The notes beneath the pieces were generated by a model that worked only from the letters and a program-made list of their open reading frames with translations, ran no database searches and had not been told where the DNA came from. A stretch of DNA of 64,000 nt. Origin: a virus. Positions 3,218-63,095 of the stretch are shown piece by piece. The position numbers were made by a program, and so were the translations under genes. Numbering within the stretch: position 1 is the stretch's first letter; each line of letters opens with the position of its first letter. Location: IMG/VR virus record IMGVR_UViG_3300045740_000123, positions 1 through 64,000 of that record; one strand, 5' to 3'.

Positions 3218-3574
3218 ATGCATAACCAAGCGGACTACTTTGACGGTCTTGGTCAGAGCATTATTGATGAAGTGATCTGCCGTTGTTTGAATCAAGCAAC
3301 GTTTGGAGAACCACTCGATAATGAAGAAAATGATGTACCATTGTACGATCAATATAATCGTGGCTTGGCATTATGCGAGCAAGGGATGGAGCGTCAGGAC
3401 TTGCAGCTAGAGGGGCGACGGCCCGGAATGACGGGTTACATTCCGTCGATGGAGGAAGCAACGGAGCGGTTCCCAGCTTCATCGCCACGACCGAAGACTC
3501 TGATTCTGGACTTGGGCGAACCAACGGAGGAGGAAAAGCTCCTGTCAGCGAAAAGACTTGGTTTGCTCCGGTAG
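3218..3574 (+). CDS. Unknown protein overlapping the DUF3310 gene (possible -1 frameshift partner)
   Basis: 118 aa, acidic. It overlaps the DUF3310 frame (3373-3888) by about 200 nt. The downstream frame lies at -1 relative to this one, and a GGAAAAG run sits in the overlap about 45 nt before this stop codon. This may be a separate small gene, or the N-terminal part of a fused DUF3310 protein made by frameshifting. Confidence 0.5.
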   Translation: MHNQADYFDGLGQSIIDEVICRCLNQATFGEPLDNEENDVPLYDQYNRGLALCEQGMERQDLQLEGRRPGMTGYIPSMEEATERFPASSPRPKTLILDLGEPTEEEKLLSAKRLGLLR

Positions 3575-3888
3575 ATCTAACTGATACCGAAGATTTTATT
3601 AGTGATTGCCCAGGGGGTGTTTGCCCTGTTCCCTGGGCTGTCAAAGAAGAGCCCCCTGTCGTCCAAATCGATAACGTCAATCATCCGTCTCATTACACAG
3701 ATGGTGGCATTGAATGCATCGAAGCAATTGAAGCTGCTTTAACCAACGAAGAATTCCGTGGTTATTGCAAAGGCAATTGTCTGAAATATATCTGGCGTGA
3801 AAAACTTAAAGGCGGTACCGAGTCACTGAAAAAAGCGCAGTGGTACTTGGATCGCCTCATTCAACTTGACGAAGCTCAGAAGGGCTGA
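3373..3888 (+). CDS. DUF3310 family protein
   Basis: 171 aa if started at the first ATG. The C-terminal 60 residues carry the DUF3310 signature: VNHPSHYTDGGIECIEAIEA, then YCKGNCLKYIWREKLKG and a final KKAQWYLDRLI helix. The domain is common in phages, including cyanophages, and is sometimes linked to nucleotide metabolism, without a settled function. The N-terminal 75 residues overlap another open frame and look less natural, so the true start, or a frameshift origin, is uncertain. Confidence 0.75.
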   Translation: MRARDGASGLAARGATARNDGLHSVDGGSNGAVPSFIATTEDSDSGLGRTNGGGKAPVSEKTWFAPVDLTDTEDFISDCPGGVCPVPWAVKEEPPVVQIDNVNHPSHYTDGGIECIEAIEAALTNEEFRGYCKGNCLKYIWREKLKGGTESLKKAQWYLDRLIQLDEAQKG

Positions 3889-4175
3889 AGATCGTCGTCG
3901 TCTTCATCATCATCCATGATGCAGGCGGCGGCTAGCTCCACCAATTCAAGGTCAGTGGGTACATCGAAGGAAATGTCGATGTTCTCACTGGCCAAAATAT
4001 CTTTAATGGCAAACCACTCCATCAGGCGTTGATGGTAAAGGTTTAGAAGAGCTGCATATAACTGCTCCCATGTCATCTCCTGCGCTTGCAGCTCTGCACG
4101 ACGCATGGAGAATTGAAGCTCTAAAGGAAGTTCAAACTCTCTTGGTTCAACAGATCGCTCCATTCCAGATTGCAT
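3876..4175 (-). CDS. nblA: NblA-like phycobilisome degradation protein
   Basis: 99 aa. Residues about 16-62 match the NblA pattern: LPLELQFSMRRAELQAQ, then MTWEQLYAALLNLYHQRLM and a third helical segment. NblA is a small helical protein that delivers phycobiliproteins to Clp protease. Freshwater cyanophage versions are known to trigger phycobilisome breakdown during infection. This copy is longer than cellular NblA (about 60 aa) because of an extra tail ending in a run of Asp/Glu. It lies next to the lysozyme gene and is convergent with DUF3310. Confidence 0.72.
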   Translation of the reverse strand: MQSGMERSVEPREFELPLELQFSMRRAELQAQEMTWEQLYAALLNLYHQRLMEWFAIKDILASENIDISFDVPTDLELVELAAACIMDDDEDDDDLQPF

Positions 4176-4199: not shown

Positions 4200-4898
4200 C
4201 TAAATGTCGCAGATGCCTTGAAGTTCATCTGCCTCTACGGAGAAGAACTCATCCCATGGGGAGTCGTCAACCCTAAATTCGTTGGCAAATTCAGAGAGCA
4301 CGTAAGGGTTGATCTTCTCTTCCAGCTTACGAATTGCGTTGACCTGCCGCGAGGATGCCTCATAGTTGCGGAAGGCTGCCAGGAGAATTCCAAGGGATGC
4401 TCTGGGTGCAGAATCTAATTCCTGAACGAACAATTGAACCTCCTCTTTGCGTCTGTCAATGAGATTACCCACAACCTTATGGTCTTCATCAAAAACCCAT
4501 TGGCTCATCTCAGTTGTGACACCATGCCAATCTTCTTGTTCAATGCAATCAATCACGGCACTGTACAAGAAGGAATGCCATCCCACTGAATGAGCAAAGG
4601 AAATCAACGCCTGAGACATTGAACCATCAAGTCCCAAGTTAAGTTTGGTCAATTCGTTTTCCAGGACTTGCACTTCGTGGAAAAGGTACTCCAATGCCTT
4701 CTCCTTGGTGCACATTTGACCTGCTTTGACGGGCAAGCCGTCAGGATAATGCTGAGTCCCATACCCAATGGTATAGGGCTCAGCACCTGTCGATGGGTCC
4801 GGATACGCTTTCTCGTTAAACCCCTCGTATTTGCGGATTAAATTAATCGCGCAGCTAAGGTCGGACATGGGAATAACACTATTCCCACAATCATACAC
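4200..4898 (-). CDS. Endolysin, GH24 (T4-type) lysozyme
   Basis: 232 aa. The T4 lysozyme active site is readable: Glu in IRKYEGF, Asp in YPDP, Thr in YTIGYGTQ. The following helices fit the GH24 fold, and about 60 extra residues follow. It would hydrolyse peptidoglycan at lysis. No signal peptide was seen, so a holin is expected. A second in-frame ATG at 4868 lies closer to the domain; the upstream one has a weak AAGG site, and the choice is open. Confidence 0.85.
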   Translation of the reverse strand: MYDCGNSVIPMSDLSCAINLIRKYEGFNEKAYPDPSTGAEPYTIGYGTQHYPDGLPVKAGQMCTKEKALEYLFHEVQVLENELTKLNLGLDGSMSQALISFAHSVGWHSFLYSAVIDCIEQEDWHGVTTEMSQWVFDEDHKVVGNLIDRRKEEVQLFVQELDSAPRASLGILLAAFRNYEASSRQVNAIRKLEEKINPYVLSEFANEFRVDDSPWDEFFSVEADELQGICDI

Positions 4899-39888: not shown

Positions 39889-40275
39889 ATGAAACTCTAT
39901 GGCCCATACACTCGCAAAGATGGCAGACAACATGTCATTCTTTACGAAAATGGCAAACGCAAAACAGTAAGCTATCCCAAGTATTTACTTGAGACAAAGC
40001 TTGGTCGATCCCTTTTGCCTCATGAAACCTGTGATCACATTGATGGCAATCCTTTAAACAATTCTTTAGATAACTTGCAACTGCTATCCAGAGCGGATAA
40101 CATACGCAAGCACGCAGCTCTTTTACCTGCAGAGCTGGGAACTTTCACTTGTCCTATTTGTTTGTGTTCATTTACAAAACGAATGCATAACACTAGGCAC
40201 AATCGAAAGCAAGGAAAACGTGGACCTTATTGTTCACGTTCATGTGCAGGTAAAGCTGGCCGACTAGCCCAATAG
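39889..40275 (+). CDS. HNH endonuclease inserted in a tRNA gene
   Basis: 128 aa, ATG at 39889 immediately after the tRNA fragment. HNH core: SLLPHETCDHIDGNPLNNSL and NLQLLSRADNIRKH. A C-terminal zinc knuckle follows (TCPICLCSFTKR, YCSRSCAGK). The last residues (GRLAQ, stop TAG) are read from the first 18 nt of the intact tRNA. It is a mobile nuclease whose target is most likely this tRNA. Confidence 0.85.
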   Translation: MKLYGPYTRKDGRQHVILYENGKRKTVSYPKYLLETKLGRSLLPHETCDHIDGNPLNNSLDNLQLLSRADNIRKHAALLPAELGTFTCPICLCSFTKRMHNTRHNRKQGKRGPYCSRSCAGKAGRLAQ

Positions 40276-40335
40276 GAAGCAGGCAAGCGACTTAAAATCG
40301 CTCAAGTCCCGGTTCGAATCCGGGGTCGGCTACCA
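40258..40335 (+). tRNA. tRNA-Leu (anticodon TAA)
   Basis: Acceptor GGCCGAC/GTCGGCT (one G-T pair), D-stem GCC/GGC with GG in the loop, anticodon arm AGCGA-CTTAAAA-TCGCT, 5-nt variable loop CAAGT, T-arm CCCGG-TTCGAAT-CCGGG, discriminator A and encoded CCA. The anticodon reads TTA (Leu). A short variable loop is unusual, since bacterial tRNA-Leu normally has a long variable arm. Charging by host LeuRS is therefore uncertain. Confidence 0.88.
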
Positions 40336-54011: not shown

Positions 54012-54647
54012 ATGGCCTTCCAAAGCGTCTGGTATGAGACTGAACTTCCTTCTGAAGTCATCAGGCTTGTTGAATCTGTACTCGAAGAAAAGTATGACGA
54101 AGATCTAATCAACTCTGTTGTTGGTGAAGGGGGCGGCGGTGTCATTAATGAAAAGGTTCGCAAAGCAAAAAATGCTTGGCTTCCTGCCAGCCATTGGGTT
54201 GCAGGTTTTGTTATGCATTATGTCAACTTAGCTAACCTCCAAAACTTCCGTTATGACATCATTGGTCTGGATGGTCAATCTGCTCAGTACACCGTCTATG
54301 ACAAAGGTGAGTTCTACAACTGGCATGTAGATCAAGGCATCTCATCTTTCTATAAACCTGAACATAACAATGGTCATGGTTTTAGTGAAGAAGTTATTAA
54401 GGATGACATCATCCCCAAAGGTGAGCTGGTCCGTAAACTTTCGTTCTCTCTTCAGTTATCTGATGAAGATGAGTACAAAGGTGGTGATCTACAAATCATG
54501 GATGAAGGTGAATCAATGTATGACGTTCCCAAAAAGAAGGGACTTCTGGTTTGCTTTGACTCCAGGGCTCGTCACCGCGTTACAAAAGTAACGTCTGGTC
54601 GCCGTAAATCCTTGGTAGGCTGGGTCGTTGGACCTCGTTGGCGTTGA
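54012..54647 (+). CDS. 2-oxoglutarate/Fe(II)-dependent oxygenase (prolyl-hydroxylase-like)
   Basis: 211 aa. The iron triad is visible: His and Asp in YNWHVDQG, the distal His in SRARHRVTKV, and the 2OG-binding Arg in SGRRKSLVGWVVGP. The fold matches PKHD-type hydroxylases common in cyanophages. The substrate is unknown: a protein or a nucleobase is possible. No signal peptide, so it acts in the cytosol. Confidence 0.88.
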   Translation: MAFQSVWYETELPSEVIRLVESVLEEKYDEDLINSVVGEGGGGVINEKVRKAKNAWLPASHWVAGFVMHYVNLANLQNFRYDIIGLDGQSAQYTVYDKGEFYNWHVDQGISSFYKPEHNNGHGFSEEVIKDDIIPKGELVRKLSFSLQLSDEDEYKGGDLQIMDEGESMYDVPKKKGLLVCFDSRARHRVTKVTSGRRKSLVGWVVGPRWR

Positions 54648-59016: not shown

Positions 59017-59568
59017 ATGTATACTCCTGGTCCTCAAGTGGTTCCTGCGCCTGAAGCAGCGCCAATGCAGCCTGTTCCAGAACCTCAGGCAAAGCCAAAA
59101 GGCCCTGCCCGTTCAAAGAATGGTGATGTCGGGGCCTTTATCCAGCAGTGCATCTCCTTGGCTTCTTACCTCAAGGAACTTCAGACACAAGCCCATCTTA
59201 TTCACCTGAACTACGAGGGGTCGAACTTCCTCGGGGTGCATGCTTTCCTTGGAGATCAGTACGAGGCTCATCAGACTCAATTTGATACGTTGTCGGAATT
59301 CATCAGGTCTATGGATTACCTGATGCCTATGTGTGCCAGGGGTCTAGCCGATGCTGGTCCTGGCATCCAGCACGTTACCAGCTACAAGGGAAGCGATCAG
59401 CTCACCACGTACTACAAAAACCTGGAAGAGCTGGGCATGAAGACCAAGAAGCTGGAGCCTATTGCTGCCAAGGTGGGTGCTATTGATATCCAGAACTACA
59501 TGGCTGAGCTGTGTGGTCAAGCCTTTAAGGCTGCTTGGCAAATCAAAGCTACACTTAGGACTTCTTAA
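59017..59568 (+). CDS. Dps-like ferritin-family protein
   Basis: 183 aa. After a Pro-rich N-terminal arm (about 35 residues), a Dps core is visible: AHLIHLNYEGSNFLGVHAF, then QFDTLSEFIRSM. Spacing fits the Dps ferroxidase site: His, 12 residues to His, 15 to Asp, 19 to Glu; the fourth Asp is shifted by one. Dps oxidises iron and protects DNA. The C-terminus may be altered by the adjacent HNH insertion. Confidence 0.7.
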   Translation: MYTPGPQVVPAPEAAPMQPVPEPQAKPKGPARSKNGDVGAFIQQCISLASYLKELQTQAHLIHLNYEGSNFLGVHAFLGDQYEAHQTQFDTLSEFIRSMDYLMPMCARGLADAGPGIQHVTSYKGSDQLTTYYKNLEELGMKTKKLEPIAAKVGAIDIQNYMAELCGQAFKAAWQIKATLRTS

Positions 59569-61911: not shown

Positions 61912-61939
61912 ATTATACAGATTCATTGGGTGTTTTCCA
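61912..61939 (-). promoter_or_regulatory. Possible promoter for the tRNA/HNH unit
   Basis: On the minus strand TGGAAA is followed after 16 nt by a perfect TATAAT. It lies at the end of the HNH gene 61913-62461 and upstream of the split tRNA. The -10 is good, the -35 weak. Confidence 0.45.
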
Positions 61940-62461
61940 GAAATAATCATCGCATTCTCCAAGCCGACCCCACTTCTCTTCCCGATAATCAATATCTTTA
62001 GTTAAAAAATCAATAGCGTTTTTCAATATTTGGATATTGTCTTTGGCGTGGCCAAGCATTGTATTGCATCTATGGCATAAAAGCCCTCTAACCTTGCCTG
62101 TTTCATGGCAATGATCTACACAAAATGTTTTCTTTGGAGCGGGACTGTTTGTTTTGCATATGGCGCAACAACCTTTTTGAATTTCCAGAATTTGTTTGTA
62201 TCTACCCCTAGGTAAACCATAGGAACGCAAACGATCAAGATCATTAGCGTGTTCTAAATTGTTTTGGCGCCATCGATTGTAATTTTCTTGATGGCGCTTT
62301 TTGTTTTTTCTTGACCATTCCCGGCTGTACTCGTTTGTACAAACACGGCACCAAGTATTTAAACCATCTTTGTTTTTCTTTGCTTTGTTAAAAGCATCCT
62401 TGGATTTAATCTCTAGGCATTTGGTGCATTTTTTCGTTGGGAGTTTGCCAGAAATAGTCAT
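61913..62461 (-). CDS. Endonuclease VII-type HNH nuclease with a foreign gene end fused to it
   Basis: 182 aa. KKCTKCLEIKSKDAFN and CRVCTNEYSREW knuckles, then CCAICKTNSPAPK, CVDHCHETGKVRGLLCHRCN, the endonuclease VII core. The last 20 residues (KWGRLGECDDYFWKTPNESV) are not nuclease sequence: they repeat the C-terminus of the gene directly upstream (62406-63095). The start lies inside the upstream gene's 3' end in another frame. Confidence 0.88.
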   Translation of the reverse strand: MTISGKLPTKKCTKCLEIKSKDAFNKAKKNKDGLNTWCRVCTNEYSREWSRKNKKRHQENYNRWRQNNLEHANDLDRLRSYGLPRGRYKQILEIQKGCCAICKTNSPAPKKTFCVDHCHETGKVRGLLCHRCNTMLGHAKDNIQILKNAIDFLTKDIDYREEKWGRLGECDDYFWKTPNESV

Positions 62462-63095
62462 CGCACTCGCCTAGGCGCCCCCATTTTAACGCTTTTTCAG
62501 AGTCAAAGTATCGAGTCGATACCTTAAAGTCTGGTGTCTTTAGATCGTGGTTGGTGAGCGATGGATCAACCATTCGACAACGATTGTTGGGATAAGCGCC
62601 AATTTGACCGTTGTCCAAAGCCACAATGTTGTGGGACTTATGCTCGTCAGGAAATTCCGCAAAGTAAAAATCCGGTTCGTTCCTATGAGGATGATAATTG
62701 TCAACCGTAAATAGGTATGTGCCTTTCATTACACCTGCACTACGTGTCATAACTTGAAACTCCATATTGAAGATCAAGTTCTTTTCGACAACCGTAAGAC
62801 CATGATCAAATCCATTCCAGAACTGCAGGTCAGTTAGCTCTAGGTCAGGAGTGGGTGCTTGAGGTTTGTCCGGATAATCTGGATCCCATGCCAGGAATGC
62901 ACTGATGGGAAGCTTGTCGTAAAGGGCTCCGTACTCAGTAAGATAAGTCTCAAACTGAAGTGCTCTACCAGTTAAAGATTTACAACTTACCCAATAACCA
63001 GGCGTATATTCACCATGACCGTCTCTTAGGTCACGTAAGTATTCACGCCTTACCCAAACCTTGACGGGCGGGACATTGGCCACAAGAGTTGTCAC
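62406..63095 (-). CDS. Conserved cyanophage protein of unknown function, GTG start
   Basis: 229 aa. VWVRREYLRDLRDGHGEYTP, WVSCKSLTGRALQFETYL, FDHGLTVVEKNLIFNMEFQV and FPDEHKSHNIVALDNGQIGA belong to a well-conserved phage family, function unknown. The start is GTG right after the T-run of a terminator. The C-terminus after KWGRLGECDDYFWQTPNE (KMHQMPRD) differs from the relic end (SV) past the HNH gene, so the gene was truncated and re-ended by the insertion. Confidence 0.75.
   Translation of the reverse strand: MTTLVANVPPVKVWVRREYLRDLRDGHGEYTPGYWVSCKSLTGRALQFETYLTEYGALYDKLPISAFLAWDPDYPDKPQAPTPDLELTDLQFWNGFDHGLTVVEKNLIFNMEFQVMTRSAGVMKGTYLFTVDNYHPHRNEPDFYFAEFPDEHKSHNIVALDNGQIGAYPNNRCRMVDPSLTNHDLKTPDFKVSTRYFDSEKALKWGRLGECDDYFWQTPNEKMHQMPRD

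Follow-up and report, generated by a model that had tools for sequence, protein, structure and literature searches.

The 64,000-nucleotide stretch of viral DNA analysed here (the window; positions 1 to 64,000 of virus record IMGVR_UViG_3300045740_000123) encodes a small protein that, judged by sequence comparison, is a true NblA homologue, and we regard this homology as solid. By descent the protein belongs to the NblA family, but the same comparisons mark it as a family variant and not a standard NblA, since two customary NblA features, the size and a conserved basic residue, are absent. The gene is fixed in the cyanophage lineage typified by Synechococcus phage S-EIV1, a widespread lineage. 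The open reading frame, its parts and its two neighbours lie in the window as follows.

3876..4175, minus strand: NblA-family ORF of 99 aa, with an ATG start; translation may instead begin at M5 (position 4163)
3993..4133, minus strand: NblA domain (PF04485 positions 1-47; ORF residues 15-61), predicted helix-loop-helix with helices at residues 18-33 and 36-63
3990..3992, minus strand: codon of A62, which aligns with Anabaena K53 in the alignment with cellular NblAs
3915..3989, minus strand: family-specific extension, comprising a linker that contains FD-x-PTDLEL and, at ORF residues 75-87, a predicted third helix
3879..3914, minus strand: acidic run (D88-D95), then the terminal LQPF
4200..4898, minus strand: phage lysozyme (PF00959, endolysin), directly upstream of the NblA ORF on the same strand, with a 24 bp gap
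3373..3888, plus strand: convergent neighbour with a DUF3310 domain, overlapping the 3' end of the NblA ORF

Among relatives, M5 was invariant and the four residues preceding it were absent from several; on this comparison the true start of the window ORF may be M5, at window position 4163. PHROGs contained no family for the window protein.

A Pfam profile search matched the window protein to PF04485 (NblA) with 28.1 bits (E 2.8e-6) over ORF residues 15-61, above the curated gathering cut-off of 25 bits, and across the whole 85,144-base virus record this locus gave the only PF04485 match. The initial annotation had seen an NblA pattern over about 45 residues and had proposed a profile search as its check. 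That search matched, and the pattern held over 47 residues, backed by three further comparisons. A profile built from the phage family was run over 291 genomes of the cyanobacterial phylum; 41 of them yielded 43 matches in total, every one on an NblA locus that PF04485 detects as well. Alignment of the phage family with 16 cellular NblAs by hhalign returned 97.2% with E 3.8e-11 (53 aligned columns, 32% identity), and the top PDB sequence match of the family profile was Anabaena NblA, 1OJH (E 1.8e-4). The N-terminal motif E-L-x-L-E-x-Q-F is present in the phage family, with its x steps changed from S to P and from Q to L. All 16 diverse aligned relatives matched PF04485 at E<=0.1. Scores ranged from 16.3 bits, under the cut-off, for AHV82245.1 of S-EIV1 (annotated as 'hypothetical protein') to 28.1 bits, and about half of the relatives scored under the cut-off. 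Since the scores straddle this value, annotation that relies on the cut-off catches only some members of the family. Weak NblA matches in the cyanobacterial genomes often contained stops.

AlphaFold2 predicted a helix-loop-helix over the domain of the window protein with pLDDT of about 80-85 there, the arrangement expected for an NblA, and also a third helix at ORF residues 75-87, in a model of modest overall confidence (pLDDT 70, pTM 0.42). A Foldseek search of this modest-confidence model against the PDB gave noise only, with no NblA match. The weaker Pfam matches to DUF4030 and PHF12_MRG_bd and the PDB matches to yeast HRD1 were rejected as lying under the cut-off or being driven by helical or acidic composition.

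The C-terminal part departs from cellular NblA. Beyond the NblA domain the window protein carries about 37 residues, made up of the PTDLEL linker, the predicted third helix, the acidic run and the end. The acidic tail of about 15 residues described by the initial annotation is real as far as the D88-D95 run and LQPF are concerned, but it is the last portion of this longer extension, in which linker and predicted helix come before the run. The 334 loci retrieved yielded 120 distinct phage-family proteins. Complete members are about 91-108 aa long, against 55-69 aa for cellular NblAs, and their last 20 residues contain 7-12 D/E; the window protein itself is strongly acidic (pI 4.05). The FD-x-PTDLEL segment is conserved in the family, and the chain ends in PF in 110 of the 120 proteins. 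The distant members L426-L436, with 49-55% identity to the S-EIV1 protein, keep a PTDLEL-type segment, have no basic residue at the K53 position and no PF end.

PMC4103541 assigns ClpC binding by NblA to a motif at the N-terminal end and phycobiliprotein binding to one at the C-terminal end. At the position of Anabaena K53, all 84 cellular NblAs in a set rich in Nostocales were basic (K in 82, R in 2), and in every one of the 120 phage-family proteins the residue was A, E, D, T or Q, never a basic one. Anabaena Leu51 and Lys53 are both needed for phycobiliprotein binding, as Bienert et al. 2006 are said to have found. The NblAs of two other phages have a basic residue here, R in PaV-LD and K in Ma-LMM01. 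NblA R44 was replaced by E in all 39 distinct aligned phage-family proteins of the first set, and the H-x-W-G-L end of NblA is likewise replaced in the family.

The gene order around the ORF was constant. In each of the 80 lysozyme-anchored loci with room, the lysozyme gene was immediately followed on the same strand by the NblA-family gene, mostly within 40 bases; these were the 80 loci closest to the window, so this count samples near relatives. A convergent DUF3310 neighbour was found in all 75 loci with room. In the interval between the lysozyme and NblA-family genes no promoter or terminator signal stood out, and the two genes are likely to be carried on the same transcript. Median dN/dS was 0.04 for the NblA domain, 0.13 for the extension and 0.23 for the acidic tail. 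All three parts are constrained, the NblA domain most, and strong purifying selection acts there.

Terminase, major head protein, DNA polymerase A, SSB, ThyX, dCTP deaminase and lysozyme of the window match those of S-EIV1 in order. By this gene content and order the window is assigned to the lineage of S-EIV1, whose host is a Synechococcus, which supports the earlier claim that the gene is phage-encoded and of cyanophage origin. A tblastn search of 50,697 phage records (E up to 10) found one relative of the window protein, AHV82245.1 of S-EIV1, which is 68% identical. Viral contigs were far richer, with 349 confirmed relatives for the window query and at least 588 confirmed stretches for the family profile. 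A bacterial origin of a close copy was rejected, as the window query found no relative in cellular genome contigs. When an Anabaena NblA fragment was searched by tblastn against the phage records, no match was obtained; since tblastn thus misses known phage NblAs, absence by this method is weak evidence. In the tree, the phage family formed one clade (100/99) on a very long branch computed from few columns, and for these reasons the tree does not place the source of the family among cyanobacteria. A prophage copy was sought in two genomes of the G035 family and none was found, an uninformative result. In Synechococcus elongatus UTEX 3055 there is an 89-kb prophage whose closest match is S-EIV1 (PMC9239245).

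We hold with moderate confidence that the protein is an NblA-type ClpC adaptor whose effect late in infection is to promote the breakdown of phycobilisomes. It would serve as an adaptor for proteolysis, probably dimeric and built of helical hairpins, binding host ClpC via the conserved N-terminal motif and contacting phycobiliproteins via the hairpin and the rebuilt C-terminus. Phycobilisome disassembly and Clp proteolysis would then be triggered, which would free amino acids and lower light input. The late timing is suggested by the position of the gene in the lysis module beside the endolysin. Given the different, longer tail, the protein may dismantle host antennae in a modified way. The adaptor reading draws on the NblA homology, the helix-loop-helix prediction, the Synechococcus-infecting lineage, the gene order in 80 of 80 loci, the dN/dS of 0.04 and the fact that other phage NblAs caused phycobilin loss upon expression in cyanobacteria (PMC9602691). 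The loss of the basic residue in 120 of 120 proteins, the change of R44 to E, the many Pfam scores under the cut-off, the modest model and the absence of a Foldseek match to NblA all speak against it. If the adaptor reading holds, phycobilisome breakdown becomes a likely standard step for S-EIV1-type phages.

The replaced cargo end leaves room for two other readings that keep the NblA descent. The protein might still dock ClpC and use its new C-terminal segment to supply the Clp protease with a different protein, of host or phage origin. The ClpC-side motif has been retained, yet in every member the residues on the cargo side and the end have been exchanged. Purifying selection acts on the extension (dN/dS 0.13), which is conserved down to relatives of about 50% identity. 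The sequence hints at no alternative cargo, however, and the divergent end could also suit picocyanobacterial phycobiliproteins; we consider such retargeting unlikely. Alternatively, the protein might form mixed dimers with host NblA, or occupy ClpC without delivering cargo, and so protect the phycobilisome during infection. A decoy of this kind would account for a protein that has lost the conserved basic residue on its cargo side yet retained the ClpC-side motif, but those phage NblAs that have been assayed in published work promote loss of phycobilin (PMC9602691) and nothing points directly to inhibition, and we judge it improbable. That the NblA of the S-EIV1 lineage kept its ClpC docking end, replaced its cargo end with a new helix plus an acidic tail, and now delivers a non-phycobiliprotein or else blocks host NblA, is a possibility we put forward tentatively and with more doubt than belief. 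A natural NblA with a replaced cargo end can separate ClpC docking from cargo choice.

Two further explanations set the NblA role aside. If the protein belonged to the lysis module in its own right, for example as a soluble protein that pairs with or regulates the neighbouring lysozyme, then its invariant place right after the lysozyme gene and its strong acidity (pI 4.05) would be accounted for. Yet no part of the protein is under tighter constraint than the NblA domain, and small intergenic gaps are compatible with simple co-expression too, which makes this explanation very unlikely. That a short helical ORF merely happens to resemble NblA might be argued from the shortness of the domain and from the several members that fall under the Pfam cut-off. 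Set against the reciprocal specificity (43 of 43), the hhalign E-value of 3.8e-11 and the cyanophage context it is scarcely credible, and the reciprocal search had already refuted it.

We compared the protein with known NblA systems. With cyanobacterial NblA (PF04485; 1OJH), the S-EIV1-type protein shares a domain of about 50 residues, predicted to be a helix-loop-helix, the E-L-x-L-E-x-Q-F motif and many core positions. It is longer, has lost the basic residue at the K53 position and the H-x-W-G-L end, and carries in addition a third predicted helix, a stretch of acidic residues and, in most members, a final PF. Known examples of phage nblA come from Ma-LMM01, MaMV-DC, PaV-LD and marine phages (PMC9602691). 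Microcystis phage Ma-LMM01 and Planktothrix phage PaV-LD likewise encode NblA homologues and infect hosts with phycobilisomes. Unlike the S-EIV1-type protein, however, their NblAs are short (about 65 aa and 54 aa, respectively) and keep the basic residue; the two copies score 52 and 45 bits on PF04485, against 17-29 bits for the S-EIV1 type, and the two phages belong to lineages other than that of S-EIV1. Marine cyanopodoviruses and cyanomyoviruses carry NblA-like genes (Nadel et al. 2019; S-SCSM1, S-TIM5), and the copy of an uncultured marine phage was active, as cited in PMC9602691. These too are phage NblA homologues, but the window protein did not match them by tblastn against the 50,697 phage records. 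AHV82245.1 of S-EIV1 is an orthologue of the window protein and occupies the same place after the lysozyme gene. The surveyed literature, the S-EIV1 genome paper excepted, contained no report of nblA for the S-EIV1 lineage.

The initial annotation had also set this lineage apart from phages that carry psbA instead. No psbA or psbD (PF00124) was found in any of 18 lineage records, several of which are fragments, and the S. elongatus control was positive. The statement stands as far as psbA is concerned, but the contrast it drew is too simple: hli-like matches occurred in 10 of the 18 records, though not in that of the window. Three of these matches were above the cut-off, including that of S-EIV1, which contains internal stops. 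A published survey of photosynthesis genes across phage groups records hli and ptoX, and no nblA, for environmental genomes from the S-EIV1 group (Nishimura et al. 2017; PMC5332604).

Several other features of the window were recorded. In the region 61913-63095 (minus strand), a PurM homologue matches residues 1-223 of S-EIV1 PurM and then stops; the endonuclease VII ORF (PF02945) that follows it again matches PurM 204-223 with its last 20 residues. The arrangement resembles an insertion or duplication associated with the endonuclease. A ferritin-like protein at 59017-59568 (plus strand) is also present in S-EIV1, where it is annotated as DNA-binding ferritin-like; the corresponding position in the window did not turn up the sulfate adenylyltransferase that lies next to this gene in S-EIV1. 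A 2OG-Fe(II) oxygenase domain protein (PF13640) at 54012-54647 (plus strand) has no S-EIV1 match. The window also contains a single tRNA-Leu gene (anticodon taa) at 40258-40335 on the plus strand.
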